A stretch of 44,454 nt of DNA from an uncultured Pseudomonadota bacterium (lineage in GTDB: Bacteria > Pseudomonadota > Gammaproteobacteria > Methylococcales > Methylomonadaceae): NCBI GenBank assembly GCA_903875455.1, contig CAIQWF010000215.1:1-44454 (forward strand). Direction: 5' to 3'. Below are positions 5,733 through 44,207 of the stretch, one piece after another. A program made the translations under genes and the position numbers. Positions within the stretch are counted from its first letter, which is position 1. Each line of letters starts with the position of its first letter. The notes under the pieces are model-generated. The model was not told the origin of the DNA. It saw only the letters and a program-made list of their open reading frames with translations, and ran no database searches.

Positions 5733-7523
5733 ATGCTGAACTTCATTCAAACAAACGTGACTAGAGAAGAACTTGTTAGTGTTGCTTTAGGAACATTAGC
5801 AGCTAATCTTGTTATCAAAAATGGTCAACTGATTGATGTTTTTAGCGGTGAAATTCGACTGGCAGATGTTGCTATCAAGGGAGAACGCATCGCTTTTGTT
5901 GGAGAAAATGCCAGTCACACGATTGGCGAAAATACTACCGTGATTGATGCAAATGGTTATTTCCTGTCACCAGGATTGATGGATAGTCATGTCCATATCG
6001 AAGCGAGTATGGTCTCACCTGCTCAATTTGCCCGTGCAGTGCTGCCCAGAGGCAATACTGCCGTTTTGTGGGAAACCTTGTGGACTGCGAATGTCTTAGG
6101 GGTACAAGGTATTGAACAGTTACTGGATGAATGTCAGCGTACCCCGTTAAAATTTTTTGCTACCGCCGCCGAAGGGGTGCCTTGTGCATCGCCTGAACTG
6201 GTGACACCTGCGCATGATTTTTCTTTAGCGGACATTGAAAATCTGCTGGGTTGGAAAAACATTGTCGGGCTAGGTGAAGTAGTTTTATTCAATGAAGTTT
6301 TGCAAAATCATCCCAAAGTTCATCAGCAAATCCAGCTGGCTCTGCAAAATGGTAAAACCGTGGACGGTAGTGTGCCAGGATTTAAGGGGAGAAATCTCAA
6401 TGCCTATGCGGCGGCAGGAATTCAATCCGATCACGAGGCAATCACTCTCGATGAAGCTATCGAGCGGATTCGCTTAGGTTTGCGTTTGGTGATTCGCGAA
6501 GGTTCCAGTATGCGCAATTTGACCGCGTTGATTAAAGTTATCACCGAGAAAAAACTCAGTTCCCGTCGTTGCTGTTTTTGTGTTGATGACAAGGATATTC
6601 GCGAAATCGCTCAGGAAGGGTTGACTGATGACTTGGTGAGAAAAGCGATTCAGGCAGGGGTTGATCCTGTTGTTGCGATTCAAATGGCGACGTTAAATCC
6701 CGCTGAGTATTTCGGCCTCGACCGTGATTTGGGTAGTATTGCTCCCGGAAAAATTGCCGATATTCTGCTGATTCAAAATCTGGAGGATTTTGTTGTAAAT
6801 ACTGTCATTGTGAATGGCAAAATCATCGCGCAAGCAGGAAAATTAGTGAATGAATTGCCTGAAACAACTTATCCCGACTGGATGCTGCAAACCGTAAAGC
6901 TAAAACGGCTGATAACTGCGGATGATTTTGTGTGCAAATCCAGTCGGGAAAACCAAACCCAGGTTCACGCGCAGAAGGTTTTTAAGGAACAAATTATCAG
7001 TGTCGAGCAAACTGTAACATTAGCAGTGCAGAACGGTGAAATTTTGCCCGATATTGACCAGGATATTCTGAGAATGGCGGTGATTGAACGGCACGGAAAA
7101 ACTGCGCCGAATATTGGTTTAGGTTTTGTGAAGGGTTTTGGGTTAAAGCAAGGCGCGATTGCTTCCAGTATTTCCCCGGATATTCACCAGATTGTAGCGG
7201 TCGGCATTGAAAAGCAAGATATGGCAACAGCTGTCAATCGACTGGTTGAGTTGCAGGGCGGTATTGTTATTGTTGCGGACGGCAAGATATTGGCGGAATT
7301 ATCTTTACCGGTCGGTGGATTGATGTCGCAGCAAGGTTATGAGGAAGTGATTAAGGCTTTAGACCGCTTGAGTCAAGTCGCTCAAACAATTGGCTGTGAT
7401 TTGCCGTCGCCGTTTATGACTCTGGCCTTTGCCGCCTGTCCGACACTGATAGAGTTCAAGCTCTCCGATAAAGGGCTGATTGATATTTGTGCCGGTAAAC
7501 TGGTGCCGCTGGAGGTTATTTAA
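5733..7523 (+). CDS. adenine deaminase-family amidohydrolase with altered active-site motifs
   Basis: ATG at 5733 follows a good GAGGA ribosome site; an open TTG at 5706 lacks one, so the protein is 596 residues. It has the full adenine deaminase architecture: an N-terminal part, an amidohydrolase barrel with HVH (residues 86-88), GLGEVV, SDHE (His224), the small re-entry domain with GSIAPGKIAD, and the C-terminal domain with G-L-G-F-V-K-G-F-G and LPVGGLMS. Several usually conserved motifs are changed: DPHEI reads ETLWT, DGHAPG reads DGSVPG (Ser203), and TDDRHP reads VDDKDI. It could therefore deaminate another substrate, use another metal set or be inactive. It stands alone, and its 3' end overlaps the convergent EamA-like gene by 8 bp. 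I would not assume adenine deaminase activity. Confidence 0.85.
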   Translation: MLNFIQTNVTREELVSVALGTLAANLVIKNGQLIDVFSGEIRLADVAIKGERIAFVGENASHTIGENTTVIDANGYFLSPGLMDSHVHIEASMVSPAQFARAVLPRGNTAVLWETLWTANVLGVQGIEQLLDECQRTPLKFFATAAEGVPCASPELVTPAHDFSLADIENLLGWKNIVGLGEVVLFNEVLQNHPKVHQQIQLALQNGKTVDGSVPGFKGRNLNAYAAAGIQSDHEAITLDEAIERIRLGLRLVIREGSSMRNLTALIKVITEKKLSSRRCCFCVDDKDIREIAQEGLTDDLVRKAIQAGVDPVVAIQMATLNPAEYFGLDRDLGSIAPGKIADILLIQNLEDFVVNTVIVNGKIIAQAGKLVNELPETTYPDWMLQTVKLKRLITADDFVCKSSRENQTQVHAQKVFKEQIISVEQTVTLAVQNGEILPDIDQDILRMAVIERHGKTAPNIGLGFVKGFGLKQGAIASSISPDIHQIVAVGIEKQDMATAVNRLVELQGGIVIVADGKILAELSLPVGGLMSQQGYEEVIKALDRLSQVAQTIGCDLPSPFMTLAFAACPTLIEFKLSDKGLIDICAGKLVPLEVI

Positions 7524-28298: not shown

Positions 28299-28496
28299 GA
28301 TATAGAAGCTTGTGTTTATGGAATTATTTTGGACTGGACTCTATTTTAAAAATGTCAGTCTTTCTTTTAAGGAGAAAAAGTAAATCTTAACGGTTTTTTA
28401 ACTATAATACAGTTACACCCTGTAAGTTTGGATTTACTTGGAAATCAGAAATATGTTGGAATATTGTTTTTCATTAAGGCAAGGGGAGATTTCTTA

Positions 28497-30737
28497 ATGC
28501 AGCAGGACACCTCTACCGTACGATTGTTAAGCTATCGGGAACTGCTTTTGACTTTGCAACGCTTATGCAAGGAAAAAAGAACAGGGTCTATGTTTATTAA
28601 CGATGGCTCTGAACATTCAGCCAAGTTAGTGCTTGAGCAAGGTCTTATTGTTGATGTTACTTTCAAGGGACAAAGTGGTGAGGCAGCACTTGCCTTAATC
28701 AAGGAAATAAAACAGGGCAAAGCTTCTTTTTCAAGTCGGCTAGGACAAACAGCCAGCACAGAATCAAAAATAGGCTTATCAACCGCCGCGATTTTTCAGA
28801 TACTGGCGAGTGCAGTACAGGCTGGCACTACTTCTTCTCCACATATTGATTCGTCACATCCTTCTTCAGAACAACCAAACACAGCACAATCTGTTTCCGC
28901 TGGCATCAGTCAGTTTCAAAGCAATGCCACTTTGCAGATTGAAGTTCCGCACGATTATCAAGCTCCTGAAATTGTCCAGACCCCCGATTTTTCAAACGTT
29001 ACCGGGATGGTTGGGATTGAAGAGCAACTTGCTGCGGTGGTAGGGCCAGTTGCCAGAATCGTCTATCTGGATTACAACAAAAGTATTGTCAATGCCAATG
29101 ACACTAAAGAACTAAATACAGTGGTAGAAAAAATTGCCAAAAACACCTTGACCGCAGAACAGCAGCAGTTGTTCAAGCAAGGGATTCAGGCTTTTATAAG
29201 ACAATACAATTTAAAAGGGGCGGAAGCGATTTTGTTCGCCCTGAAAGGTTCGTTGAAAAAAATAAGGTTAAATCCCTCCTGTCTGGCGCTGTTTATTACC
29301 AAACATGCCGGGCATGGTGACCTTGGAATTGCGTTGTTAAGCAAACTGGCAGTGCAGCTTGAGCAGGCAGGCAATGTTGGCAATTCTGTTGCCTTGCTTG
29401 ATGTGTTGCGGTTGCTGGAAAAGTCGGATAAAACCGGTTTGCTGGAAGTGCGGGAAAAAGAAAAGGTCGGCGGATTTTATTTTGACAAAGGCGTGCTGGC
29501 AAATTCCGTACAATGCAACATGAATGGCAAGATCGTTGCCATGGAAATGATGCAGTGGACACCGGATTACATGGTGTTCAGGGCTGTTCCTCAAAAAGGC
29601 GTGTCACGCCAGATTCACCAGACCGTTGATGTTTTGGCGAAAGAAGTTGAAAAATTCCAGGAAGGGCAGGCTCCAAAGCCGCAAAAGCCGCAACTCAGTA
29701 AAGCGGATGAAATTGTGATGATTGCCAAAGCCATTCATCTTGCCGAAAGCTATGATCCTGGCAGTGCCGAGCAATTGCTTTGCCAGATTTTGATGAGCTA
29801 CGAAGATAATTTTAAAGGCTGGTTTTGGTTATCGCGGGTTTTGACCAACATGACCGCCATAGAAGTTGCTTTAAAAAAAGCCGCACACCTTAATCCCAGA
29901 AGTCTTGACTTATCTGAGGATATAAAGAAATTTACCCTGGCGCGGAAGGCCATAAACAGCGACTTTGTATTGCGTTGTCCATTTTGCTGGACTCCTGTCA
30001 ATGAACACGATGTGGAATGTTTCTACTGCAAATCGCATTTTTTTATTACGCCTGATTTTTTCAAACTGATCGGCAAAGCCAAAACAGAAATACTGGATAA
30101 AGCCATTGAGCGATTTTCCAATGCTCTGCAACAGGAGCAAGGGGCAAATCCAAATATCTACTTACGTTTTTATTTGGCAATGGCTTACCTCAACCGTAAA
30201 TATTATCAGGAAGGCTCAGACCAGTTCAGTGAAATAAGTCGGCTAAACACTGAAAACAACGCCTTGCTAATGCAGTACCGGATTCTGAAAGATTATATGA
30301 ATTCGATTGGCATGGCAGCGACCACAGTTGAGCATCTGGATATTCCGACCACCGCCCATGCCGCTGCCAACCAGCAAAAAATCCTGATTGTTGAAGACAG
30401 CATGGTGACCCGCAAAGTAATTGCCAGAACCTTGATGGCGAGCGGTTATGGAGTGTTTGAAGCGAAAAATGCCCATGAGGCATTGACTGATCTGGAAGAG
30501 AGAAATCCTGATTTAATCCTGCTTGACATCATCCTGCCGGGCAAGGACGGCTACGAAATTCTGGCGGAAATCAGAAAAAAACCGATGTTCGAGAAATTAC
30601 CGGTCGTTATGTTAACCTCGCGCGATAGCCTGTTTGACAAACTGAAAGGGAGAGTGTCTGATGCCAATGAATATCTGACCAAGCCTTTCCAGCCAGACCA
30701 ATTGTTAATGATTGTGCGCAAATACCTAAATAAATAA
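28497..30737 (+). CDS. DUF4388 protein with zinc ribbon and C-terminal receiver domain
   Basis: ATG at 28497 follows a GGGGAG site; an earlier TTG frame from 28428 is not supported. The 746-residue protein has an N-terminal DUF4388-like (PATAN-type) region (about 8-85, LQRLCKEKRTGSMFIN), a second such region (about 310-395, LLEVREKEKVGGFYFDKG), a helical repeat region, a zinc-ribbon-like C-P-F-C...C-F-Y-C (Cys494-Cys497 and about 17 further on), and a receiver domain from about residue 628 with phosphoacceptor Asp677. It is the first gene of the chemosensory operon; CheB-like starts 2 bp after its stop. It probably takes phosphate from CheA as a multi-domain output or scaffold. The exact role is not known. 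Confidence 0.8.
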   Translation: MQQDTSTVRLLSYRELLLTLQRLCKEKRTGSMFINDGSEHSAKLVLEQGLIVDVTFKGQSGEAALALIKEIKQGKASFSSRLGQTASTESKIGLSTAAIFQILASAVQAGTTSSPHIDSSHPSSEQPNTAQSVSAGISQFQSNATLQIEVPHDYQAPEIVQTPDFSNVTGMVGIEEQLAAVVGPVARIVYLDYNKSIVNANDTKELNTVVEKIAKNTLTAEQQQLFKQGIQAFIRQYNLKGAEAILFALKGSLKKIRLNPSCLALFITKHAGHGDLGIALLSKLAVQLEQAGNVGNSVALLDVLRLLEKSDKTGLLEVREKEKVGGFYFDKGVLANSVQCNMNGKIVAMEMMQWTPDYMVFRAVPQKGVSRQIHQTVDVLAKEVEKFQEGQAPKPQKPQLSKADEIVMIAKAIHLAESYDPGSAEQLLCQILMSYEDNFKGWFWLSRVLTNMTAIEVALKKAAHLNPRSLDLSEDIKKFTLARKAINSDFVLRCPFCWTPVNEHDVECFYCKSHFFITPDFFKLIGKAKTEILDKAIERFSNALQQEQGANPNIYLRFYLAMAYLNRKYYQEGSDQFSEISRLNTENNALLMQYRILKDYMNSIGMAATTVEHLDIPTTAHAAANQQKILIVEDSMVTRKVIARTLMASGYGVFEAKNAHEALTDLEERNPDLILLDIILPGKDGYEILAEIRKKPMFEKLPVVMLTSRDSLFDKLKGRVSDANEYLTKPFQPDQLLMIVRKYLNK

Positions 30738-30739
30738 TC

Positions 30740-31798
30740 ATGGCAAAAGCAGCTTATAAAATTTTAGTTGTTGACGATTCCAGCCTGATCCGGCAAGCGA
30801 TTGTTGACATCATCAACAGCAGTGATGATTTAGAAGTAATAGGTCAAGCTGCCAGTGGCACTGAAGCCTTGGCTCTGATTCCACAGCTTAAACCGGACTT
30901 GGTGACACTGGATATTATCATGCCGGGCATGAACGGTTTGACCACGCTGAAACACATCATGATTTTCCATCCGGTGCCGGTTGTGATGCTAAGCTCACTG
31001 GCACAGGAAGGTGCCGACATTACTTTTGACGCTTTACGCTATGGCGCTATTGATTTTATCGCCAAGCCGTCTAAACTGGATGATGAGACTTTAAAAAAAC
31101 AGACTGCGCAGATTATTCAAAAAATCCGCCTGGCCGCAAGGGTTAAGGTAAGTGTTATTCAATACATCCGGGTTAAACCCAAAACGCACCCGGAACCTGT
31201 GCTGCCGCACAACAAGAGCTGCAAGCACATTGTGGCAATGGGTGTAGCTGAAGGTGGATACGGAACGCTGTTAAAAATCCTGTTGCGGCTAAATCCTTAT
31301 CCGACAACAACTTATATGGTGATTTTTTATGAAACATCAAATCATGTTAATGGGTTCATTCATTACCTGAATCAGTACACGGCGGTTAAGGTCGAAAGGC
31401 CGCAAAATAATACCTTGCTAGAAGCAGGGGTTTGTTATATAAGTTCTGGTGAAGAATATGTGACCGTCCATGGGCAACCGGGCGAGCTGGTTTCTTATGT
31501 CAGCCCGGCACCATTTTCTTCCAGACGCGGGACCATTGATATGCTGATGTTTTCAGTGGCAGAAACGGTGGGAAGACATTCGCTGGGTGTGGTTTTGTCC
31601 GGGGATGGTACAGATGGTTCGGAGGGGTTGGAAGAGATTGTGCGGGTCGGTGGCGGAGCGATTATTCAAGCACCGGTCAGTTGTCTTTACAAAAGCATGG
31701 CGTTATCAGCTTTAGATATGTGTGAAGCGGAAATAGTAGTGGCGGACACGGAAATAGCCGCAGAAATTAGTCGATTTTTACCAAAATTAAATTTTTAA
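30740..31798 (+). CDS. CheB-like response regulator with degenerate methylesterase site (1)
   Basis: The 352-residue protein has a receiver domain (phospho-Asp58, [11 protein letters not shown]) joined to a CheB methylesterase fold. Relative to the CheB triad Ser-His-Asp, the Ser motif G-x-S-T-G-G reads G-V-A-E-G-G (Ala170), the Q-H-M-P-x-G-F motif reads S-N-H-V-N-G-F (Asn201 in the His place, with a His one step later), and the Asp is kept (Asp292, LSGDGTDG). It is therefore probably not an active esterase, though the receiver looks intact. It follows the DUF4388 gene by 2 bp. It may act as a phosphate sink or structural partner in the array. Normal CheB proteins demethylate MCPs and need CheR, which is absent here. 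Confidence 0.83.
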
Positions 31799-31832
31799 TA
31801 ATAAAAATGTTTATTCAAGCGGAGAATCCATA

Positions 31833-34800
31833 ATGATGACATGGTTCAATGACCTCCACCTAAGAGTCAAGCTTCTGGCTTTCTTCTTGATGGTAGGATT
31901 AATTCCTTTCATAAGCGGTAGCTCTATCGCTTATCTTACTTCTGACAGTGCGTTAAGAACTCAGATTATCGACCAGCTCACGGGTATTCGGGAAACCAAA
32001 AAGAAGCAGGTTGAAATCTATTTTGACGAACGGAAAGGCGACATGGCGGTACTGACCCAAACTGCACAAGCGTTTTGGCAACAAAGCTCCGCAGCATTGG
32101 AGGGTATTCAGGAGATGAAACGTGATCGGGTTGCCAACTACTATAGCCGGATATTCAAACTGGCGGCTGATACCAAGGTAAACCTGCGCTTTACCGAAGG
32201 GGTTGTCGCCTTTTCCCAAGCCGCTGCCGCTGGAATAAGCAGTCCGCAATATAAATCGGTAGTGGCGGCACGTGAAAAAGGTCTAAAGTCCATGAAAGAA
32301 AACTTCGCGGTTAGCGATGTTCTTTTGATTGATGCTGCAGGAACTGTAGTTTATAGCGTTAATAATGGCGGTGAAGTAGGGCAAAACCTCAAAACCGGCA
32401 GTTTGAAAGATTCGCCATTAGGCAGGGTTTTTGTCAGGGCACGTTCTGAAGTGGCGACAGAAGACTTTGGCATGTATGAACCCACCAAATCGCTAGAGTC
32501 CTTTGTTGCTACACCGTTATTTGATGTAGGCACGGGGGCTTATGTCGGTGTGGCTGCCTTTCAGGTGCGAATCGAGGAAATTAACAAAATTTTACAAGAC
32601 CGAACCGGTTATACTGCCGGTGGTGAGGCCTATCTGATTGCAAAAGATGCGGACGGCAAATTTACCTATCGTTCTGACCGGGTGGTTAAACAAGGTAAAC
32701 TCGGAGACGAAAGAGCTGCGATTGGTTATATTGAGGCTGCGATTGCCGGAAACTCAGGTCTTGAGTTTAAAGTCGGTTCCACCGGTAAATATGAGTTATC
32801 CCTGTACGACACAGTTAAATTGCCTGGCGGTTTAAATTGGGGGATCATCACCAGCGTACCGGTAGAAGAGATTATTTCCCCCAAAAGCCAAGGCGAAACA
32901 GAGGACTACTTTACCAAATATGTTAAGACTTATGGCTATTATGACTTGATGCTGATAGCTGAGGACGGTCAGGTGTTCTACACCGTGGCACATGAGGCCG
33001 ATTACAATACCAACGTTTTTACCGGCCAATACAAAAACACCGGTTTGGCTCGGGTAGCGAAAAAAGCTTTCGACAAACGTGGCTTTGTATTTGATGACTT
33101 TGACCGTTACGCAGCCTCTGATAATCAGGTCTCTGGATTTATTGCCGAACCGGTTATCGACAAAGGCAAAGCGTTATTTACGGTGGCCTTGCAGCTATCC
33201 CCTGCCGGTATTAACCGAATCATGCAAGAACGTACCGGATTGGGTGAAACCGGTGAATCTTATCTGGTCGGCCCTGATTATCTGATGCGTTCGGACTCGA
33301 TTCAGGATGCTAACCACAAATTACAGGCTTCGTTCGATAAACCTGAAACCGGTGCGGTAAAAACCGTTGCAACTGAAGAAGGTTTCCAAAAATCGGATGC
33401 GAAAGTCATGATGGGTTATACCGGTAAGGAAATTCTTGCTGCCTATACCCCTGTAAAAGTCTATGGCGACACCACCTGGGTTTTGATTGCCAAACTGAAC
33501 ACTGACGAAGCTTTCGCGCCGGTGACCAAATTTGCGCGGACTATGGGCGTAATGGGTAGCGTGGTACTGGTTGTGGTTATCATCATTGCGTTGTTGGTTG
33601 CGGCATCTATCGCCGGTCCGATTACCAGAATGGCGAACATTATTACCGAGATTGCGAACAACCGCGACTTGACCTTGACGGTTCCTGACGCGGGTAACGA
33701 CGAAATCGGGGTTATGTCTAAAGCGTTTAACAACATGATTTCGGTGATTCATAAAGCCTTCATCGTTGTAAACAATTCGGCGGTGAACGTTGCTGAAAGT
33801 GCGGAAAACGTGGCGAAACGGGCTGCTGGTAACAGAGAGCGGGCCGCGAACGAATTGGAACGAGCCAAAGAAGCGGTAACAGTTATCGGTGAAATGGGCG
33901 GCACGGCAGCTAAAGTAAACCAAGCTTCTGAAGGCCAAAAAGTGGCGGCGGAAGTTTCTGCCAAAACCGTTCAAGGTTTGTTGAAGTCGGTTCAGGAAGT
34001 ATCTGAAGCCGCGAAAATCCAAAACAAGGAAGCGAAAGAAACCATGACCAAAGTCGCCGAGATGGGCGCCACCGGTGCGAAGGTTGTGGCAACCGCGCGG
34101 GAACAAGGCGAGATGGTGGCAAAAGTATCTGCCTCTATTGCAGCGATTACCAGCGCGGTAGAAAGCATGAACAAGGCGGTTGCGCAAGCGACCCTGCACG
34201 GCAAGGCTTCCCTGTTAGCGGCGGAAGAAGGCAGACGCTCAGTAGCATCAACGGTAGAAGGGATGCAGGCAATTGCCGAATCTTCCGAGCAAATCTCTGA
34301 CATCATCGGGGTAATTACCGAAATCGCCGAACAAACCAACCTGCTGGCGTTAAACGCGGCGATTGAGGCGGCGAGAGCAGGGGCGCACGGTAAAGGTTTC
34401 GCGGTTGTTGCGGACGAGGTTGGTAAACTGGCGCAGCGTTCTTCTGAAGCGGCAAAAGAAATTACTCAGCTGATTAAAGACTCAAGCGCAAGGGTTGAGG
34501 ACGGATCAAAACTGACCGACGAATCGCAAAAATCGTTGATTAAAATCGACGAGGGTGGTCGAGTCAACATGCAGGCGATTGACGAAATTGAAAAAACTGC
34601 GGCTACTTTGGCATCCGGTACTGCACAAGTACAAAACCTGATGCGTGATCTGAACAGACTTGCCGAAGAAATCGCCGGAATGGCGGGTGAGCAAGGGGTG
34701 CGTAGGGCTGCTGCGGAAAACGCCTTGACCTTGTTGCTTGAAGAGTCTGAGCGTATTACCGAACTGGTAACAGAAGCCAACAAAGGTGCTGCGGACATCG

Positions 34801-35018
34801 GACAGGAAATGACTGGTATCGTGGCGCGTACTGACGAAATGAGTAAAATGACTGGCGAACAGGCAGTACGTTCCAGAAAAGTAACAGAAATTTCCAACGA
34901 ATCAGCGCAAGCGGCAGCACAAACTGTGGAAGGAGCGGGTGTGGTTGTGAGCATTACCAAAGGCTTGCAAGACTTGTCACAAGAACTGACTACCCAGGTA
35001 AAACAGTTCAAAATCTAG
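31833..35018 (+). CDS. methyl-accepting chemotaxis protein with large double-Cache sensory region
   Basis: The 1061-residue receptor starts with ATG at 31833 (GGAG upstream) and a transmembrane helix (about 11-33). A periplasmic region of about 530 residues has two similar Cache-like modules (about 40-345 and 355-560), each with a K-N-T-G-L- or R-T-G-x-T-G-E-type segment. A second transmembrane helix (about 572-597), HAMP (about 598-650) and a signalling domain with the conserved hairpin [32 protein letters not shown] follow. It has no C-terminal CheR-tethering pentapeptide; it ends VKQFKI. It is encoded with CheW, CheY and CheA, the only receptor in the operon, so it is probably the dedicated sensor. 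Ligand unknown. Confidence 0.93.
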
Positions 35019-35036
35019 TCTACGGGAGTATTTGTT

Positions 35037-35567
35037 GTGGCTGATAAATATACGGCAAGGGTTGACTCGGATAAAGAGCAACTCATTCAACTGGTGGGCT
35101 TTAAGATAGGAAAAGAAATTTTCGGTGTGGATATCTTGATGGTTCAGGAGATTATTCGTTCCGCACCGATTACTTATGTTCCTAATTCGCCTGAGTTTGT
35201 AGAGGGTGTAATTAATTTGCGTGGCAGCATCATTCCGGTGATTGATTTACGCAAAAGGCTCAATCTGCATGGCGCAGGCTATGCAAAGGAGAAAGACTGG
35301 ATTTTGATTCTGGATATTGCCGGAAGAGTCACAGGGTTTATTGTTGATTCGGTTACTGAGGTAATTAAAGTCGAGGAAAGTAGTATTGATCCGCCGCCCG
35401 ATATTCTGGTGGCGGGGCTGCATAGCCAGTATATTCGGGGGGTTTGCGAGATTGATGAGAACCTGCTGATTCTTCTTGATTTTAACCGTATTTTATTAGT
35501 TGATGAAGTCAGAAAACTGAAAAGTGTTGCTCTTACCCAAGAAGTAAATGATGCTGGCGAACAATAA
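35037..35567 (+). CDS. cheW: CheW coupling protein
   Basis: GTG at 35037 after GGGAG gives a 176-residue CheW-fold protein: LVGFKIGKEIFGVDILMVQE, VEGVINLRGSIIPVIDLRKR and I-L-D-I-A-G-R-V-T-G-F-I-V-D are the standard CheW segments. It links the receptor to CheA. The extra 15 residues or so at the N-terminus and the short C-terminal tail are unremarkable. It lies 18 bp after the receptor gene and 27 bp before cheY. Confidence 0.93.
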   Translation: MADKYTARVDSDKEQLIQLVGFKIGKEIFGVDILMVQEIIRSAPITYVPNSPEFVEGVINLRGSIIPVIDLRKRLNLHGAGYAKEKDWILILDIAGRVTGFIVDSVTEVIKVEESSIDPPPDILVAGLHSQYIRGVCEIDENLLILLDFNRILLVDEVRKLKSVALTQEVNDAGEQ

Positions 35568-35594
35568 GTCAGGAGTTGGAAAAGTGGTGAATTT

Positions 35595-35948
35595 ATGAGT
35601 AAACGTATTTTGATCGTTGATGATTCTTCAATGATGAGAAAGATGCTGACAAAAGTCTTAACAGCGAAAGGAGGGCACACCATTGTGGGTGAGGCCAGAA
35701 ATGGAGTTGAAGCTTTGGAGTTGTATAAAACACTCAAACCGGACTTGATAACCATGGATATTACCATGGGGGAAATGGACGGTTTGAGTGCTGCCAAGCT
35801 GATATTAGATTATGACAGCGATGCTCATATCCTTTTTCTCTCTAACCTGGATAAAGAAAAATACGGCGATGATGTAGAAAATATTGGTGCAATTGGCTTT
35901 GTTAACAAGCACAAGGCACAAGATATTATTGATGTTATCAATGAGTGA
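35595..35948 (+). CDS. single-domain response regulator, CheY-like
   Basis: The 117-residue receiver has the acidic pair Asp9-Asp10, phosphoacceptor Asp55 (LITMDITMGEMDG) and Lys105 in F-V-N-K-H-K, where the usual Lys-Pro is Lys-His. The switch Ser is in FLSNLD. It should be phosphorylated by the CheA encoded 15 bp downstream. Its output is unknown: it need not bind a flagellar motor, since no flagellar genes are in the window. Confidence 0.9.
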   Translation: MSKRILIVDDSSMMRKMLTKVLTAKGGHTIVGEARNGVEALELYKTLKPDLITMDITMGEMDGLSAAKLILDYDSDAHILFLSNLDKEKYGDDVENIGAIGFVNKHKAQDIIDVINE

Positions 35949-35963
35949 TTTTAAGGACTGGTT

Positions 35964-38957
35964 ATGATTGATTTATCTCTACTTGAAGATTTTGTAACTG
36001 GAGCAGGGGAAAGCTTGGATGAAATGGAAAATGCCTTGCTTGAACTTGAAACAGATCCGAACAATAACGAGCTGCTTAATACTATCTTTAGGGCTATGCA
36101 CACCATTAAAGGTGCTGCACAGTTTGTAGGACTGGATAAGGTATCGGCTTTAAGCCATGTTTTGGAAGATTTGCTCGATTTGCTCAGAAATGGACAAAAG
36201 CCGGTGACGCTGGAAATTGTTGATTTGCTGATCAAAACAAAAGATCGGATCAGTTTGTTAGTAGCAGATTTAGAACGAACCCAAACCGAAAAAACTGAGG
36301 TGGATGATTTAATTGCACAAATTAATGCTTACCTACAGCCCGGTGAAGAATCAATCATAGCCGCAACACCAGTAGCAGAAGAGCCTGAGATATCATCGTT
36401 TGAAGAAGAGGTAGCAGGTGGGGAAGATTTATCATCTTTTCTAACTGAAGAACAGATGGAAGAGGATATAGCTTCCTTTTTGTCTGAAGATAATGAGGCA
36501 TTGCCTGCTTTTACTCCTGAACAAATTCAGGATGAAGATTTATCATCCTTTTTAACTGAAGATAATTTGAGTGAGGATATAACATCCTTTCTGGATGAAG
36601 GGAATCAGGCTGGGGATTTATCTTCGTTTTTGACAGAAGAAGCCCCGCAGGAAGACAGTCTGGCGAGCTTTTTATCGGAAGAAAGTGAGCAGGAAACAAT
36701 CCCCAGGGGTGAGTCAGAGCAGGAAGAGATGTTTATCTTGCCTGATGAAGAATATGATCAGGAATTGTTTGGTATTTTTATTCAGCAGGTGCAAGAAAAG
36801 TTTTCGATATTGCAAAGTTGCATTCAACAGTTATCTTTTGCTGAAAACAAAACCGAACTGCTGAATACTGCAATAGATGCACTGGAAAGCCTTAAATTTT
36901 CCGCCAACTATATGGCTTATGAAAAATTGACCCGGTTCTATGGCAAATGGATAGATGATGCAATTGATGCCGAGGAGGGATTAGCTGAATCCAGTACTCA
37001 GGTATCGTTTGAGTTTATGAATGATTATATGCTGAAGTTGCAGGCTATTGTTCCGCAATTGCAAAACCTGGCTGCTGTTCAGCACACTGTACCTGAACTT
37101 GAATCTGCTTTATTGACCGAGTCTCTTGAAAAGCTGGTTGCCCCTGAAACTGCATCCAACATAGAGTCGGCTTTCATATCTGAAATCATCGAATCTCAAC
37201 CTGTTGTACTACCAGAGCCGGAACCGGAAAAACCGGTGGTGCAGGCCGTTGAAGAGCCGCCTGTTTCAGAAAGCAGCGAAATAAAACCAGGTGCAGACGA
37301 AGATGATCTGTTTAAAAGACTGAGTGGAGCATTGGATTTAACCATTGAACAGTCAATAACTTCAGAGCCTGTCAATGAATTGTTTGGGGCACTACTCGCC
37401 ACCAACAAGGAAGAACAGGCCAGAGCTAAAGCCGAAAAAGAACACCAGTTAAAGCTTGAAGTTAAGTCTTTGGAGCAGGCCAACAAAGAACCTTCACCTC
37501 AAATACTGGAAACGGCAGCAACCGAACAGGTAAAAACAGCACCGCCGCCCACAGAAACTATCAAACCTGCTGAAGCTGCAAAACCGAAACCAATCACAGC
37601 CACTGTGGCGGAAAAAAGCGATACCGCCGCTAAAAAAGCCAAAACAGAATCTAGCGCAGATAAAACATTCAAAAAAAGCATTCGTGTTGATGCCGATAAA
37701 ATTGATTCATTAATGAACCAGGTGGGTGAGCTGATTGTAGATAGGGCTTATTTCTTTCAGTTGGCCAGTGAAATTAATGAATTGCAGCAGTATCTGAAAA
37801 CAGTTACCGGACTGGGACAAAAAGACCTTAAACCGGTAAGAACTTTTGCTTATCGTTTTAGTGAAGCCGTCATTTCTTTGGGTCGAACTTCTAACGAACT
37901 GCAAGAGGGGGTAATGAAAGTCAGAATGCTCCCTATTGCGCAGATTTTTAACCGTTATCCACGTTTGGTGCATGATTTGGCGCATACCAACGGTAAAAAG
38001 GTGCAGCTGGAAATTCGAGGGGAAGAGACAGAGCTCGACAAAATGATTATCGAGGAAATTTCTGATCCGTTGATTCACATGATTAGAAATGCAATTGGCC
38101 ATGGCATTGAAGCTCCTGAAGTACGGAAAAAAGAAGGTAAGCCGGAAACAGGAACCTTGATTTTGGAAGCCTACCATGAGAGCAATCATATTGTCATCGA
38201 AGTGAGTGACGATGGCAGAGGGATTGATACAGACAGGATAAAAGCCAAAGCTGAAGAAATGAATCTTTTCAGCAAAGAGGAATTGAACCGGATGTCAAAA
38301 GATGATTTGACTCGTTTTATAATGATGCCGGGATTTTCTACCGCTAGGGAAATAAACAGCACATCAGGACGTGGTGTGGGCATGGATGTGGTAAAAAAGA
38401 ATATCGAAAAATTGAATGGCACTATTGAGGTAGAGTCAAAGCTGGGGGTCGAAACGAAAATCAGGTTAAAAATTCCTCTGACTTTGGCAATTATTCAGGC
38501 ATTGCTGATTCGGGTTGGTGAAGATTCATTTACCATTCCTTTAGCAAACGTCGAAGAAACATTGCGGGTTTCTGAATCTGAAATTTCCATCATGGAAGAA
38601 ACGGAAGTGATGTATTTACGTGGTAAAACCTTACCGATTTTCCGCCTTGCCACGTTGTTTGGACTTAAATCCAGCCAAAAAGACAGCGAAACTGATTTCT
38701 TTGTAGTGGTGGTCAACACCGGAAATCAAAGAATTGGTTTAATGGTTGATGCGTTGCTTGGTCAAGAAGAAGTGGTAATTAAACCTTTGGCTGATTATCT
38801 GCATGAGCAAAATTGTTTCTCCGGTGCAACCATTATCGGTGATGGCCGTATCTCCTTGATTCTTGATGTTTATGAATTAATTAATATGACCACAGATAAA
38901 CAAATTAAAAAACATCATGAGCAAGAAAAGAAATCACTGGCATCACTGGCAGAATAA
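35964..38957 (+). CDS. cheA: CheA histidine kinase with acidic repeat linker and a second, His-less HPt-like region
   Basis: The 997-residue protein begins with an HPt domain (His46 in MHTIKGAAQ). Residues 155-237 carry six copies of D-[LI]-x-S-F-L-[TSD]-E, in a linker rich in Glu and Asp. Residues about 260-350 resemble a second HPt, but its His is Glu308 (L-E-S-L-K-F-S-A). A long Pro/Ala/Lys linker precedes the dimerisation domain (about 570-640), the ATPase N-box region MIRNAIGHGIE, DDGRGID, G-F-S-T-A and GRGVGMDVV, then a CheW-like C-terminus. The kinase motifs are intact, so it should phosphorylate the neighbouring receivers. It starts 15 bp after cheY. Normal CheA has 650-700 residues; the extra length is the linker, repeats and pseudo-HPt. 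Confidence 0.93.
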   Translation: MIDLSLLEDFVTGAGESLDEMENALLELETDPNNNELLNTIFRAMHTIKGAAQFVGLDKVSALSHVLEDLLDLLRNGQKPVTLEIVDLLIKTKDRISLLVADLERTQTEKTEVDDLIAQINAYLQPGEESIIAATPVAEEPEISSFEEEVAGGEDLSSFLTEEQMEEDIASFLSEDNEALPAFTPEQIQDEDLSSFLTEDNLSEDITSFLDEGNQAGDLSSFLTEEAPQEDSLASFLSEESEQETIPRGESEQEEMFILPDEEYDQELFGIFIQQVQEKFSILQSCIQQLSFAENKTELLNTAIDALESLKFSANYMAYEKLTRFYGKWIDDAIDAEEGLAESSTQVSFEFMNDYMLKLQAIVPQLQNLAAVQHTVPELESALLTESLEKLVAPETASNIESAFISEIIESQPVVLPEPEPEKPVVQAVEEPPVSESSEIKPGADEDDLFKRLSGALDLTIEQSITSEPVNELFGALLATNKEEQARAKAEKEHQLKLEVKSLEQANKEPSPQILETAATEQVKTAPPPTETIKPAEAAKPKPITATVAEKSDTAAKKAKTESSADKTFKKSIRVDADKIDSLMNQVGELIVDRAYFFQLASEINELQQYLKTVTGLGQKDLKPVRTFAYRFSEAVISLGRTSNELQEGVMKVRMLPIAQIFNRYPRLVHDLAHTNGKKVQLEIRGEETELDKMIIEEISDPLIHMIRNAIGHGIEAPEVRKKEGKPETGTLILEAYHESNHIVIEVSDDGRGIDTDRIKAKAEEMNLFSKEELNRMSKDDLTRFIMMPGFSTAREINSTSGRGVGMDVVKKNIEKLNGTIEVESKLGVETKIRLKIPLTLAIIQALLIRVGEDSFTIPLANVEETLRVSESEISIMEETEVMYLRGKTLPIFRLATLFGLKSSQKDSETDFFVVVVNTGNQRIGLMVDALLGQEEVVIKPLADYLHEQNCFSGATIIGDGRISLILDVYELINMTTDKQIKKHHEQEKKSLASLAE
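36426..36676 (+). repeat. coding repeats for the D-x-x-S-F-L motifs in CheA
   Basis: Six copies of an eight-residue motif, D-[LI]-[ST]-S-F-L-[TS]-E and close variants, are encoded by degenerate nucleotide repeats in which gattta(t/g)catc(t/c)tt recurs. They fall at CheA residues 155, 168, 192, 205, 218 and 231. Spacing is irregular (13-24 residues). Confidence 0.75.
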
Positions 38958-39035
38958 ATCTGTAGAGTTTGATTTTATCGTGTTCAGAAAAAGCGTGTTA
39001 GATATTTTGTGACACTTCTGATTTGAGAGGCAACT

Positions 39036-40094
39036 GTGGCGGAAAAAATAAAGGTTTTAGTCGTTGATGATGCCAGTTTTATGGTTAAGGCTGTCAGTGA
39101 AATTTTAAATTCTGATCCAGATATTGAAGTAGTCGGTTCCGCCAAAAATGGTTTGCAGGCGCTGGAAAAGATTAAGGAACTCTCGCCGGACGTAATTACT
39201 TTGGATGTGGATATGCCGATTATGGATGGCATCAGAACTGTGCGGCATATTATGTTGGAATGCCCCGTGCCGGTGGTGATGCTGAGTTCCTTGTTTAGCA
39301 ACGGTGCGATTACTTTTGATGCGCTAAGGCTTGGGGTGGTGGATTTTTTGCCTAAACCGTCAGGTGCTATTTCTCAGGATATTCACAAAGCCAAGCAGCA
39401 AATTATTGATCGGATAAAAATGGCAGTTGCTGTTAATATCCATAACATACATCGGGTAAAAATCAGACCGGTTGATGAGAACAATTCTTTAGAAGGCTAT
39501 TACGGTTTTCAGGCTTTGGATTACATTTTGCTTATCGGAACTACACTAGGGGGACCTAATACCAGCATTCGTGTTTTTTCAGAGCTCCCGCCTAAATTGT
39601 CAACTGCAGCTGTAGTAGTGCAAGAGATTTCGCCAAAAATTTTGCCTGCATTTGTTAAAGAATTTGACAAATATACACCTTGGCATATTGCAGAAGCTGT
39701 AGACGGCGCAATTTTAGAAGCTGGTGTGTGTTATGTAGCATCAAATGAATATTCATTAACGGTAGCAGTCAATGACAATCAGGAGCCTTATTTAAAAGTC
39801 GGGGAAAATGTCGATAGACCTTTGAACCAGTTATTTTCATCGGCAGCCACTGTTTTTGGACGACGCACCATTGGAGTATTACTAACTGGAGTAGGCGATG
39901 ATGGATCTGATGGTTTTGCTGAAATAAAGCAAAGACAGGGAATTACTATTGCACAAAAAAGCGACACTTGTGTTTATCCCAATCTGGCCAAATGTGCAAT
40001 TGAAAAAGGTTTGGTTGATATAGTTCTTGAAGAAACAAATCTCTCCAGGGAAATAGAAACACTAATTAATGAACAAGCAAATAGTTTATCTTAA
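39036..40094 (+). CDS. CheB-like response regulator with degenerate methylesterase site (2)
   Basis: GTG at 39036, after a GAGAGG ribosome site, begins a 352-residue protein that is a paralogue of the one at 30740. The receiver has phospho-Asp57 (LDVDMPIMDGI). In the esterase domain the Ser motif G-x-S-T-G-G reads G-T-T-L-G-G (Thr160), the His motif Q-H-M-P reads Q-E-I-S (Glu187), and the Asp is kept in TGVGDDGSDG (Asp279). It has therefore lost the usual Ser and His, by different substitutions from its sister. It follows cheA by 78 bp and precedes the ParA gene by 21 bp. Probably a phosphate-responsive but catalytically inert partner. Confidence 0.83.
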   Translation: MAEKIKVLVVDDASFMVKAVSEILNSDPDIEVVGSAKNGLQALEKIKELSPDVITLDVDMPIMDGIRTVRHIMLECPVPVVMLSSLFSNGAITFDALRLGVVDFLPKPSGAISQDIHKAKQQIIDRIKMAVAVNIHNIHRVKIRPVDENNSLEGYYGFQALDYILLIGTTLGGPNTSIRVFSELPPKLSTAAVVVQEISPKILPAFVKEFDKYTPWHIAEAVDGAILEAGVCYVASNEYSLTVAVNDNQEPYLKVGENVDRPLNQLFSSAATVFGRRTIGVLLTGVGDDGSDGFAEIKQRQGITIAQKSDTCVYPNLAKCAIEKGLVDIVLEETNLSREIETLINEQANSLS

Positions 40095-40115
40095 GGGTTG
40101 AATGCAGAGTTTTTT

Positions 40116-41018
40116 ATGATTATTGTCTGTGATAAATGTCAAACCAGATTCCAGTTGGATGTCAGTTTAATTAAAAAAACGCTATTTAAAGTCCGATGCT
40201 CAAAATGTAAGCATGTGTTTTCAGTTGATACATCACCCAAAGAGGACGTTTACGAATTGACTTCAAGCAATATTGCCCCGGATAAAAAAGTTATTGCAAT
40301 TTGCAATCAGAAAGGTGGAGTGGCAAAAACCTCGACCTGTCTTAATTTGGGGGCTTCGCTTTCTTTAACAGGGAGGCGGGTGCTACTGGTTGATTTTGAT
40401 GTGCAAGCTAATTTAAGTCTGCTGTTTTGTCAAAAAAACCAGCCTTCTTTTTACGAAGTTATGCAAAAAGAAGCTGATATTTTAAAAACCATCAAAAATG
40501 TGCGCCCAAATTTGTGGCTGTTGCCTGCGAATAGCAAAATGTCTTTATTGGCCCGTGAGTGTTTGCAGCAAAAGGATTTTGGAATTTTCCTGCGTAATGC
40601 GCTGGAACCAATCAAAAGCCATTTTGACTATGTTCTGATTGACACGCCCCCATCCATAAAGTTTTTTACTCCTAATGCGTTAATAGCCGCTGATTTTGTG
40701 ATTATTCCGACGCAAGCTGAGTTTTTGGCAATGAATGGAGTTATGCAAACCGAAAGCATTATCAAGGCATTGGCAAAAACACGCGTTTTGGATTATCGAG
40801 TCCTGCTTACTATGTATGACCAAAATAATACAGCCTCAAAAGTGGTGTTTTCAAAATTAAAAACCAGATACAAAGACAAAATGTTTACCACAGTAATTGA
40901 TCTTGACTTTAAAATGCAAGAGTCGCAAATAGTGAATGAACCTGTTGTTTATTATGATGAAAAATCAGTTTCTGCTTTGCAATACAAGGCCCTTGTTAAA
41001 GAAGTTGAAGAAGCTTAA
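40116..41018 (+). CDS. ParA-family ATPase with N-terminal zinc ribbon
   Basis: The TTG frame from 40098 leads to ATG at 40116 behind an AGAG site, and this is taken as start (300 residues). Residues 4-40 are an MJ0042-type zinc ribbon, C-D-K-C...C-S-K-C (Cys5, Cys8 and a pair near 30-33). After a linker comes a ParA/MinD ATPase: deviant Walker A KGGVAKTS, DFDVQANLS, DTPPS and PTQAEFLAM. Last gene of the chemosensory transcript, it probably positions the receptor array or segregates it on division, as ParC-type proteins do in Vibrio and PpfA in Rhodobacter. The zinc ribbon may recruit the array or DNA. The array link is inference. Confidence 0.88.
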   Translation: MIIVCDKCQTRFQLDVSLIKKTLFKVRCSKCKHVFSVDTSPKEDVYELTSSNIAPDKKVIAICNQKGGVAKTSTCLNLGASLSLTGRRVLLVDFDVQANLSLLFCQKNQPSFYEVMQKEADILKTIKNVRPNLWLLPANSKMSLLARECLQQKDFGIFLRNALEPIKSHFDYVLIDTPPSIKFFTPNALIAADFVIIPTQAEFLAMNGVMQTESIIKALAKTRVLDYRVLLTMYDQNNTASKVVFSKLKTRYKDKMFTTVIDLDFKMQESQIVNEPVVYYDEKSVSALQYKALVKEVEEA

Positions 41019-41097: not shown

Positions 41098-41859
41098 ATG
41101 ATTGATAAAAAAATAACTTTACCCTTAGTTACATTGCTTTGTGTGCTATCACTATGGGAATTAGTGACACGTTTTAGTGGATGGAGTTCCAATGTTTTTC
41201 CAGGGCCGATTGCGGTGCTGACCAGCATGGAAGAGTTAATTGTTAATGGTAAATTATTAAAAAATACAGTCGCCAGCCTGTTCAGAGTTAGTATCGGCTT
41301 TTCACTTGCCGTCGTTTTGGGAATTCCAATAGGAATTATTTTAGGCAGAATGGAAATAGCCAAACTTTTGTTTAACCCTTTAGTGCAATTTTTACGCCCC
41401 ATTTCTCCGCTTGCCTGGATTCCTTTAGCAATGCTGTGGTTTGGAATTGGCGACCCACCTGCCATTTTCTTGATTTTTTTGGCCAGTTTTTTTCCAATGG
41501 TGGTATCAACCAGTGTTGCCGTTGAGTCTATTCGCCCCACTTTTTTTCAAGTGGCGGCAAATTTTAACTTTACCCGCTATGAGGTTTTAACCAAAATTGT
41601 GATTCCAGCTATTACACCGCAAGTTATTACGGCATTAAGAATGACAATTGCAATTGCCTGGTTAGTGGTGGTTGCTGCAGAAATGATAGCTGTACAGTCA
41701 GGGTTGGGCTACCTAATTTTAGACTCCAGAAATGCGTTACGAATGGATTATGTGATGGTGGGAATGATTGCGATCGGAGTGATTGGTCTTTTTCTGGACT
41801 TCATTATGCGCGAATTAGGAAATATTGAATCAACAGCGTGGGGAAGGTTGACAAAATAA
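41098..41859 (+). CDS. ABC transporter permease, SsuC/TauC/NrtB type
   Basis: The 253-residue inner-membrane protein has about six helices, and the coupling region A-A-N-F-N-F-T-R-Y-E-V-L-T-K-I-V-I-P-A of the binding-protein-dependent permease fold typical of nitrate, sulfonate and taurine importers. Its ATG at 41098 begins 79 bp after the ParA stop, past the symmetrical terminator. The stop lies in TAATG with the ATPase start, so the two are coupled. Substrate unknown. Confidence 0.88.
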   Translation: MIDKKITLPLVTLLCVLSLWELVTRFSGWSSNVFPGPIAVLTSMEELIVNGKLLKNTVASLFRVSIGFSLAVVLGIPIGIILGRMEIAKLLFNPLVQFLRPISPLAWIPLAMLWFGIGDPPAIFLIFLASFFPMVVSTSVAVESIRPTFFQVAANFNFTRYEVLTKIVIPAITPQVITALRMTIAIAWLVVVAAEMIAVQSGLGYLILDSRNALRMDYVMVGMIAIGVIGLFLDFIMRELGNIESTAWGRLTK

Positions 41860-42650
41860 TGAGCCATATTCAGATACAAAACTTGAACAAACACTATGTT
41901 GACCAGAGACGGTTGCCACGTAGTGAAGAGGATATCCGTTCTGAGCGGACTATTCAGGTTCTCGATGATATTAATTTAGAATTTCAGGATGGTGAGATGG
42001 TCTGCATTTTAGGCCCTTCTGGCTGTGGCAAATCTACCATGTTGAGAATGATTGCCGGCTTTGAACATCCGAGTTCAGGTCAAGTGTTGATTAATAATGA
42101 AGTGGTTACCAAGCCCAGAGCTGATAGCATTTTTGTATTTCAACACAGTGGCTTATTGCCCTGGATGACGGTGTGGGAAAACGTTGAATTAGGCTTGCGG
42201 CATCTGACTGACTTGGAGAAAAAAAATAAAACCATTCGAGAATATATTGAAATGGTTGATTTAGGTCGGTTTGGCAATCATTTCCCTCATCAACTCTCAG
42301 GCGGTATGTTGCGGCGTGCTGAGTTGGCCAGGGCCTTGGCGGTTAATCCTGATACCTTGATTATGGACGAGCCGTTTAGCGGACTGGACTTTCTAACACA
42401 CATGAAAGTGCGCGAAGAAGTTGTTAACATGCACGAATTTATCAAAAAAACTACCCTGGTTGTTACCCATGACATTGATGATGCGTTGATTATGGGGGAT
42501 CGCGTCATTGTAATGAGCGGCAGGCCCTCCCATGTGAAACTGGAACACAAACTTGATTTTGGCAGACCCCGCGATTTAGGCTCAAACCCTGAGCTGAGAG
42601 CCTTGCGAGATGAGATATTTTTTATGCTGGGGGTCAGTTATGCTATCTAA
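41859..42650 (+). CDS. ABC transporter ATP-binding protein, SsuB/TauB type
   Basis: The 263-residue ATPase starts at 41859 (MSHIQIQNLNK); a longer frame from 41838 lies within the permease gene and has no support. Walker A GPSGCGKST is near residue 53-61, Q-loop F-V-F-Q-H-S, signature LSGGMLRRAELARAL, Walker B LIMDEPFSGLD, and the switch His in VTHD. The signature reads M-L-R-R where M-x-Q-R is usual, and the Q-loop replaces a normal D. An extra segment of about 15 residues (R-R-L-P-R-S-E-E-D-I) lies before Walker A. Its ATG overlaps the permease stop (TAATG), and its 3' end overlaps the binding protein gene by 11 bp. Confidence 0.9.
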   Translation: MSHIQIQNLNKHYVDQRRLPRSEEDIRSERTIQVLDDINLEFQDGEMVCILGPSGCGKSTMLRMIAGFEHPSSGQVLINNEVVTKPRADSIFVFQHSGLLPWMTVWENVELGLRHLTDLEKKNKTIREYIEMVDLGRFGNHFPHQLSGGMLRRAELARALAVNPDTLIMDEPFSGLDFLTHMKVREEVVNMHEFIKKTTLVVTHDIDDALIMGDRVIVMSGRPSHVKLEHKLDFGRPRDLGSNPELRALRDEIFFMLGVSYAI

Positions 42651-43659
42651 AATAGCGTTGCCGTGGCGAATTGGTATTATTTCAGTCTCATGGTTGGTGT
42701 TTATTTCTTTTGCTCATTACCAGTTAAATTTTGAACACGGTAGCAAAAAAAACGTTTATATGGGTTATATGCCTGTGATTACCAACTTGGCCGCACCCTT
42801 ACTTGATTATGCTAGCAAGGAAAATAGTGAAGTTCGTTTTAACGCGTTGAAATTTTCTTCTTTCTCCGAGATGGGGGAGTCTTTACGTAATGGCAAGATA
42901 GATGCTGCTTTTATTATTGCCCCGTTGTCAATAGTTTTAAAACAACAAGGCGAAGATATAAAAATTGTTTATATTGGCAATCGCCATGAGAGTACGTTAG
43001 TTGTTCGGAAAGGCTTGAAAATCAGATCGTTAAGTGACTTAGCTGGTAGCAAAATTGCGGTACCATCACGTTTTTCTGGACATAACATCACTTTGCGCAA
43101 ACATTTGAAAAAATTGGGTTTGGCAGACAAAATCAATGTCGTTGAAATGAATCCGCCCGATATGGCTTCAGCTTTGATTTCAGGCTCATTAGATGCTTAC
43201 TTTGTTGGCGAGCCCTTTCCTTCTAAAACCCTAAAATCGGGCGATGCTGAGCTTTTACACTATGTGGAAGAAATTGCCCCGCACTTTATTTGTAATTTGA
43301 TGATAGTGCGCAACGACTTTATTAAAAAAGATCCAAAGACAGTAAAAATGTTAGTTGCCAGTGCTGCACGGGCAGGTTTTTGGGCAAAAAACCATTTGGA
43401 TAAAACCGTAGAAATTGCAGCCGAATATTGGAATCAACCGCCTGACTTAGTTCGTTATGCGTTGACAGCTCGCAAAGGCGGGGTTTTATTTGATCTTTAC
43501 CAGCCTAAAGAAACTGAAATACAAACAATGGCTAATGATATGGTGAGTTTAGGCTTGATAAAAAATAACAATATCGCCGGTTTAGTAGATGATGAATTTG
43601 CAAAGAATGTTGATTTCAATAATATCGGCGACGATATTCACACTGTTTTTCCTAAATAA
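42640..43659 (+). CDS. ABC transporter substrate-binding protein, NitT/TauT (NMT1/SsuA-like)
   Basis: ATG at 42640 follows a G-rich site (GGGGGTCAG) and overlaps the ATPase gene by 11 bp, giving 339 residues. An N-terminal hydrophobic segment (about 8-29, G-I-I-S-V-S-W-L-V-F-I-S-F-A) is not followed by a Cys, so it is a signal peptide or an uncleaved anchor. The body is of the NMT1/SsuA type: G-Y-M-P-V-I-T-N-L-A, A-F-I-I-A-P-L, G-N-R-H-E-S-T, D-L-A-G-S-K-I-A-V-P. The ligand is unknown; this family binds nitrate, sulfonates, taurine, bicarbonate or pyrimidines. The next gene starts within its stop (TAATG). Confidence 0.88.
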   Translation: MLSKIALPWRIGIISVSWLVFISFAHYQLNFEHGSKKNVYMGYMPVITNLAAPLLDYASKENSEVRFNALKFSSFSEMGESLRNGKIDAAFIIAPLSIVLKQQGEDIKIVYIGNRHESTLVVRKGLKIRSLSDLAGSKIAVPSRFSGHNITLRKHLKKLGLADKINVVEMNPPDMASALISGSLDAYFVGEPFPSKTLKSGDAELLHYVEEIAPHFICNLMIVRNDFIKKDPKTVKMLVASAARAGFWAKNHLDKTVEIAAEYWNQPPDLVRYALTARKGGVLFDLYQPKETEIQTMANDMVSLGLIKNNNIAGLVDDEFAKNVDFNNIGDDIHTVFPK

Positions 43660-44207
43660 TGTCGAAGAATATTGAAATAGAGCAATTAGGTGCTGCTGTT
43701 TTAAGAATGACAGCAGTGCCGGTTGAAAACGTAAAGTCGCCGAAGTTAGGCGAAGTTATTGAAGAAATGCTCGATATTCTTTCTGATTCAAAAGGTGTTG
43801 GATTAGCCGCGCCACAAATAGGCCATTCCATTCAAGTGCTTGCGGTTGCATCTAAACCAACCTCACGCTATCCAAATGCTCCTCTGATGGAGCCTATCGT
43901 GATGATAAATCCGGTTTTTCAACCTTTGACCCAAGAGCAGGAAAGGGATTGGGAAGGCTGTCTTAGTATTCCAGGAATTAGGGCGTTAATACCTCGCTAC
44001 AGAAAAATCATAGTTGATTATACGGATATGACGGGGACGTTAGTTACGCTTGAATTAACTGGTTTTGTCGCGCGAGTTTTTCAGCACGAATATGATCATC
44101 TGCAAGGGATGGTTTATTTAGATCGGGTAGAAAATAACCGCGATATTATTTCAGAAACCGAGTTTTTCAAATTGTTGGCACTACAAAAATCCCTGCTTCA
44201 CGCTTAG
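43659..44207 (+). CDS. def: peptide deformylase
   Basis: The 182-residue metalloenzyme removes the formyl group from new proteins. Motif 1 GVGLAAPQIG (46-55), motif 2 EGCLS with metal ligand Cys101, and motif 3 H-E-Y-D-H with His143, catalytic Glu144 and His147 are all present, although motif 3 is HEYDH rather than HEIDH. Its ATG is in TAATG with the binding-protein stop, so it is translated from the same messenger as the ABC transporter. A deformylase in an uptake operon, away from fmt, suggests a second, accessory copy; a peptide- or drug-related role is possible. Confidence 0.9.
   Translation: MSKNIEIEQLGAAVLRMTAVPVENVKSPKLGEVIEEMLDILSDSKGVGLAAPQIGHSIQVLAVASKPTSRYPNAPLMEPIVMINPVFQPLTQEQERDWEGCLSIPGIRALIPRYRKIIVDYTDMTGTLVTLELTGFVARVFQHEYDHLQGMVYLDRVENNRDIISETEFFKLLALQKSLLHA

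Follow-up and report, generated by a model that had tools for sequence, protein, structure and literature searches.

Contig CAIQWF010000215.1 of an uncultured Pseudomonadota bacterium (Methylomonadaceae; assembly GCA_903875455.1) carries a chemosensory gene cluster with two open reading frames (ORFs) that resemble CheB. The term window is used here for the whole stretch analysed, 44,454 nucleotides, which is the entire contig (C215) of a 3.49 Mb assembly in 265 contigs. Methylation is taken as the core of chemosensory adaptation, and enzyme activity as the reason for CheB to exist. The locus raises the question of what CheB-like proteins do when the catalytic Ser and His are replaced and no CheR is encoded beside them. 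The comparisons below suggest that CheB was kept and duplicated after losing its catalytic residues and is now a switch rather than an enzyme. The reading that we consider probable is a chemosensory unit that works free of methylation and whose CheB has been turned into a receiver-gated, non-catalytic adaptor; the loss of the triad, the lack of CheR in the cluster and the loss of the receptor consensus are read from sequence, and the binding role is a proposal. The two ORFs are:

30740..31798, + strand: CheBa, receiver and CheB domain, with Ala170/Tyr197/Asp292 replacing Ser-His-Asp (Pfam, alignments, model)
39036..40094, + strand: CheBb, receiver and CheB domain, with Thr170/Glu197/Asp289 (Pfam, alignments)

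Both ORFs begin where the initial annotation had placed them (30740 and 39036), and both match Response_reg and CheB_methylest above the Pfam cut-offs. Residues were mapped by phmmer alignments to the solved CheBs 1a2o and 6ymz and by MAFFT alignments with other CheBs. At the columns of Ser164, His190 and Asp286, CheBa displays Ala170, Tyr197 and Asp292, and CheBb displays Thr170, Glu197 and Asp289. The alignment to CheB structures thus places no Ser-His pair in either active site. The replacements of Ser that had been reported are found, although the Thr of CheBb is residue 170 and not 160. His is absent from the His190 column in both proteins as proposed, but the His in the N-H-V-N-G-F segment of CheBa lies off that column, which is occupied by Tyr197. 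The triad Asp is kept in both, and the receivers are intact, with the two acidic residues, the phospho-Asp, the Ser and the Lys present. A structural model of CheBa, built from 92 sequences, has a mean predicted local distance difference test score (pLDDT) of 93.9, and its best matches in the PDB are full-length CheBs (6ymz, template modelling (TM) score 0.82; 1a2o, TM 0.83). The comparison with the PDB was made with this model only; a model of CheBb, built from 8 close rows, reached a mean pLDDT of 67.2 and was discarded as too poor. Judged by these residues, CheBa and CheBb of the window do not appear to be members of the active CheB methylesterase family.

The same replacements are found in orthologues. 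In 58 aligned rows of CheBb, the Ser column holds Thr in 36, Ser in 15 and Asn in 7, and the His column holds Glu in 56 and Asp in 2. The CheBa set has 39 rows, of which 36 are scoreable, three fragments having been set aside. The Ser column of these is Ala (21), Ser (8), Gly (3), His (3) or Cys (1), the His column is Tyr (24) or His (12), and the Ser-His pair is absent in 32 of the 36. Ser and His occur together in none of 18 scoreable CheBa rows, 17 gammaproteobacterial and one from Desulfobacteraceae (L062). By comparison, Ser-His-Asp is present in all of 95 other CheBs from the same searches, taken as whole ORFs. Because all of these controls are intact and the replacements recur in orthologues, the loss of the triad is not a matter of chance. 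The phospho-Asp is found in 58/58 CheBb and 36/36 scoreable CheBa rows. One CheBa (locus L048, positions 6233–7303, genome G036) shows Ile at the conserved receiver Lys, the sole such row among 36 with a letter at that position.

The ratio of nonsynonymous to synonymous substitution (dN/dS) between the window and genome G001 amounts to 0.063 in CheBa and 0.064 in CheBb. The CheB domains taken by themselves give 0.067 (CheBa) and 0.075 (CheBb), and the receivers 0.048 and 0.035; all values are rough, because synonymous change is close to saturation. On these ratios both proteins are under purifying selection, not drift. Around the former active site of CheBb, T169, L171, N175, T176, E197, I198, W216, C232, P315, N316 and L317 are each found in 56–58 of the 58 rows, and all except T169 occur in less than 10% of the 95 control CheBs. 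The residues surrounding this site have been exchanged for a near-invariant new set.

No CheR is present in the window cluster, as the initial annotation had stated. BLAST searches with three CheRs showed a CheR-like ORF in 0 of 64 cluster loci (some of which repeat one cluster or are second contigs) vs 24 of 62 control CheB loci. In whole genomes, no CheR was found by Pfam model in 6 of 12 cluster genomes (90–96% complete) and none in 2 of 13 more, i.e. 8 of 25 in total. Five of the genomes in which none was found (G002, G010, G058, G076 and G438) also lack any CheB domain beyond those of the cluster, and another, G036, has a third CheB with Ser-His-Asp (L144, 4413–5459). CheD is missing in 10 of 12 cluster genomes. 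The genome of the window itself has two CheR domains outside the cluster, one on contig C25, where an intact CheB is also found, and one on contig C184, where it is fused to a CheB domain. The latter fusion (L038, 6925–8625) is a single ORF that lies between two hybrid-kinase-like ORFs. A second receptor is present in G010, an assembly of 5 contigs; its neighbours are a CheW and a CheA-like kinase of 1584 residues, and this set is Pil-Chp-like by domains.

The C-terminus of the window's receptor, ...TTQVKQFKI, has no tether pentapeptide, as had been noted. Methylation sites were scored with the receptor methylation consensus. In its strict form this is absent from the window's receptor; 5 of the 18 receptors from clusters contain it (mean 0.28), vs 17 of 17 control receptors (mean 3.9). 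Among 13 receptor-like ORFs from the class of the Desulfobacteraceae assembly L057 (sulfate reducers, termed the L057 class), 3 have it (mean 0.23), and one of the 13, L163, may not belong to its cluster as the receptor. A receptor, CheW, CheA and CheY core is fully present in the window cluster by Pfam. The unit would thus be chemosensory by its core and, by the features tested, not methylation-adapting. The earlier proposal of a phosphate-responsive, non-catalytic pair appears well supported by the conserved loss of the triad, the conserved receivers, purifying selection and the lack of receptor consensus; the modulation of one receptor array by this pair, also proposed earlier, is conjectural.

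The L057 class also has a third paralogue, termed CheBx (26 ORFs, mostly between CheA and CheBb). The Ser column of CheBx is Gly in 29/29 rows, His is found at the His column in one, and the Ser-His pair in 0/29. Three CheBx sequences (L057, L159 and L160) were run against Pfam, and each displays two receivers, a DUF4388 and a CheB domain; the long CheBa of L174 has the same composition. In the window, 2 bases separate the gene of a DUF4388 regulator from that of CheBa. The fusion of receiver, DUF4388 and CheB in CheBx suggests that the DUF4388 regulator and the CheB-like protein work together. In one tree CheBa, CheBb and CheBx lie on one side of a branch with the 95 CheBs on the other (Shimodaira–Hasegawa-like approximate likelihood ratio test, SH-aLRT, 97). 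In a second tree, with more rows, CheBb joins the other CheBs with weaker support (81); here CheBb and CheBx rows were thinned, rows >430 residues were cut to the last 360, and 24 of the 95 controls were used. A single shared loss of catalysis for the three paralogues is a possibility on which the two trees differ.

The cluster is not confined to the window's genome. A close CheBb (67–100% identity, E <= 4.1e-150) is present in 8 of 151 genomes, these being the window's genome, itself one of the 8, and 150 relatives. All 8 also have CheBa and other cluster genes, in a single order where contigs permit; in 3 of them the cluster is divided between two contigs. Among named assemblies, those of Methylomonas and Methylococcaceae have the closest CheBb. 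Among the best 80 loci of more in a scan of named genomes, clusters are found in Chromatiaceae, Candidatus Competibacter phosphatis, Desulfobacteraceae and other gammaproteobacterial assemblies; one in an assembly titled Synechococcaceae may reflect mis-binning. CheBa (E 1.7e-117 or better) is present in four genomes outside the window's family among 369 genomes of the class, of which 18 more reached E up to 1e-60 and some joined the control CheB set. In the L057 class, CheBb was found in 34 of 291 genomes (E up to 1e-80; weakest 1.4e-103), 3 of the 34 having been known before sampling. No plasmid with CheBb was found at E up to 1e-60. The system is thus present in methane oxidisers and sulfate reducers, and scattered across the gammaproteobacteria. 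Cluster L164 (G767) is carried by a contig of 8.03 Mb and L189 (G710) by one of 6.91 Mb. L167 (G692) shows two CheBb/CheBx/CheA sets facing one another within 19 kb.

Beside CheBa and CheBb, the window cluster consists of the following genes:

28428..30737, + strand: DUF4388 (PATAN-type) response regulator, receiver at the C-terminus (Pfam PF14332, PF00072; orthologues); translation may instead begin at the ATG at 28497
31833..35018, + strand: receptor with Cache-like region, HAMP and methyl-accepting chemotaxis protein (MCP) signalling domain (Pfam; dCache_1 below its cut-off)
35037..35567, + strand: CheW (PF01584)
35595..35948, + strand: CheY-like receiver (PF00072)
35964..38957, + strand: CheA with Hpt, dimerisation, ATPase and CheW domains (Pfam; the P2 domain gave no match in this search)
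40098..41018, + strand: ParA-like ATPase, zinc ribbon at the N-terminus (PF13614, PF13717)
41098..41859, + strand: ATP-binding cassette (ABC) transporter permease, SsuC/TauC/NtrB-like (PF00528; NCBIfam below cut-off; synteny)
41838..42650, + strand: ABC transporter ATPase (PF00005; synteny)
42640..43659, + strand: ABC substrate-binding protein, NMT1/SsuA-like, with an N-terminal hydrophobic stretch (PF13379, PF09084; synteny)

The continuation past CheBb, i.e. the ParA-like ATPase followed by the ABC permease, ATPase and NMT1/SsuA-like binding protein, was missed by the initial annotation. All three ABC genes are present in 22 of 25 clusters (28 loci, three being second contigs) and at least one in 24, the exception being a 4.5-kb contig. 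In 32 loci of the L057 class, all three are found in 21, the permease alone in 2 and none in 9 (L162, L165, L167, L174, L177, L180, L181, L187 and L190, four of these on contigs <8 kb). Overall, 47 of 57 loci carry at least one ABC gene; L088 and L189 have theirs on the opposite strand. In 62 control CheB loci there is no permease and no binding protein, and the ATPase gave two weak matches. This frequent link to an ABC transporter suggests that sensing is tied to uptake. The transporter resembles those of the SsuABC/TauABC/nitrate type in its permease, ATPase and NMT1-like binding protein, but unlike these it lies inside a chemosensory operon and, in the NCBIfam matches shown, falls below the curated cut-offs. 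Concerning output, FliM is missing from 10 of 12 cluster genomes and PilT is found in 12 of 12, the latter being no more than compatible with pilus control.

These features can be joined in a proposed mechanism. The unit would be self-contained, with the DUF4388 regulator, CheBa, receptor, CheW, CheY, CheA, CheBb, ParA-like ATPase and SsuABC-type transporter. Intact receivers and gene order suggest phosphotransfer from CheA to the receivers of both CheBa and CheBb. Phosphorylation would open or close the CheB domain, as in ordinary CheB, and the domain would bind a partner rather than cut a methyl ester or amide. Candidate partners are the receptor, the DUF4388 regulator, the ParA-like ATPase and the ABC ATPase. 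As output, surface motility through type IV pili or control over the gate of the linked transporter would be more likely than a flagellum. If there is feedback, its source would be the binding of phospho-CheB or the competition of several receivers for phosphate, and not methyl turnover. A more far-reaching form of this proposal, which we put forward only tentatively, is that CheB became two or three receiver-gated pseudoenzymes in a widespread, undescribed class, and that the CheBb pocket, binding or catalytic, couples the array to the SsuABC-type transporter and a surface-motility regulator.

Several observations weigh against a methylation-free unit with an adaptor CheB. Ser is retained in 15 of 58 CheBb. 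Four CheBa rows (L174, L185, L187 and L189), all of the L057 class, have Ser, His and Asp, and three of these cluster in one tree group (support 95). The expectation that homologous clusters always lack the triad therefore holds for CheBb, with His absent in 58/58, but not for these four, which weaken any view of the entire CheBa branch as inactive. A relaxed methylation consensus still occurs on average 1.8 times in a cluster receptor, against 5.8 times in a control. Three other gammaproteobacterial clusters have at the same place a regulator that is Response_reg only, with no DUF4388 match. The presence of PilT says little, because PilT is common. CheR is found elsewhere in 17 of 25 cluster genomes. 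Methylation might accordingly continue through a CheR and an active CheB encoded elsewhere, with the local pair modulating it, and the two CheR domains and intact C25 CheB of the window's genome and the four intact CheBa rows would fit this. We regard it as very unlikely, since 8 of the 25 genomes show no CheR, the cluster loci none in 64, and the receptors are mostly without consensus. The initial annotation had left open adaptation without normal methyl turnover or through outside enzymes; an outside CheR candidate exists in the 17 genomes and none was found in the 8.

Other explanations concern the CheB domain itself. The receivers of CheBa and CheBb could be plain phosphate sinks that drain CheA phosphate and shape CheY signalling, the CheB domains being ballast. 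Both receivers are intact, one CheA serves several of them, and receiver domains act as phosphate sinks in other systems (PMC10782961). However, a ballast domain would be expected to be lost, and the CheB domains are nearly as constrained as the receivers, with near-invariant new pocket residues in CheBb; a pure sink is thus disfavoured and seems unlikely. The eleven CheBb residues, conserved in CheBb and, except for T169, rare in controls, would fit a repurposed enzyme or ligand sensor, whose pocket binds or converts another molecule and perhaps links transport to sensing. This we consider rather improbable as well: the chemistry cannot be named from residues, that the residues line one pocket is drawn from the alignment, the CheBb model being poor, and CheBx has almost none of the triad. 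Decay of genes without function would explain the loss of catalytic residues, but is scarcely credible, being contradicted by open frames, by a kept gene order, by replacements that recur across unrelated assemblies and by a dN/dS of about 0.06. In this system selection has preserved a CheB fold with its phosphorylation switch, while the triad and the receptor consensus went and the cluster has no CheR. This makes testable which roles CheB has beyond catalysis, and how, or whether, an array adapts without methyl groups.

The system can be compared with known ones. It shares with the CheB methylesterase/deamidase (1a2o, 6ymz) a receiver and CheB domain, the receiver signature and, for the CheBa model, a full-length fold match, but differs in the replaced Ser and His, the cluster without CheR and the receptors mostly without consensus sites. 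Methylation-independent chemotaxis as in gastric Helicobacter, which is not known to have CheB or CheR, likewise relies on a chemosensory core without receptor methylation; here, in contrast, the CheB fold is retained and duplicated. Cyanobacterial Tax/Pix systems (PMC7690835, PMC5812497) also have a DUF4388/PATAN regulator, receptor, CheW, CheY and CheA together, and their PATAN regulators have been connected with type IV pili, the likely output. The present cluster differs from them in its two or three CheB-like proteins, its ParA-like ATPase and its ABC transporter, and the DUF4388 domain is not matched in the three gammaproteobacterial relatives mentioned above. A laboratory parallel to keeping CheB while altering it may be seen in evolved delta-cheR E. 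coli (PMC12270135): CheB gains substitutions grouped around the catalytic pocket, the phosphorylation pocket and the regulatory interface, without truncation, although the authors infer a continuing need for some CheB activity. Judged by titles and abstract openings, with subscription papers mostly outside the set, the papers listed describe neither a CheB lacking Ser and His nor this cluster, which may already carry a chemosensory class label (F1–F17, TFP, ACF).

Promoter-like and terminator-like sites in the window are no more frequent than in shuffled sequences, and because of this the view of a single operon rests on gene spacing. The CheA linker (36426–36684, residues about 155–240) contains six short SFL[T/S/D]E repeats, which are fewer or missing in non-methanotroph relatives. 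A role of these repeats in docking the various receivers of the cluster is conceivable. A peptide-deformylase gene (PF01327) is found at 43659–44207, its first base being the last base of the binding-protein gene, and a relative also comes next in several methanotroph clusters.

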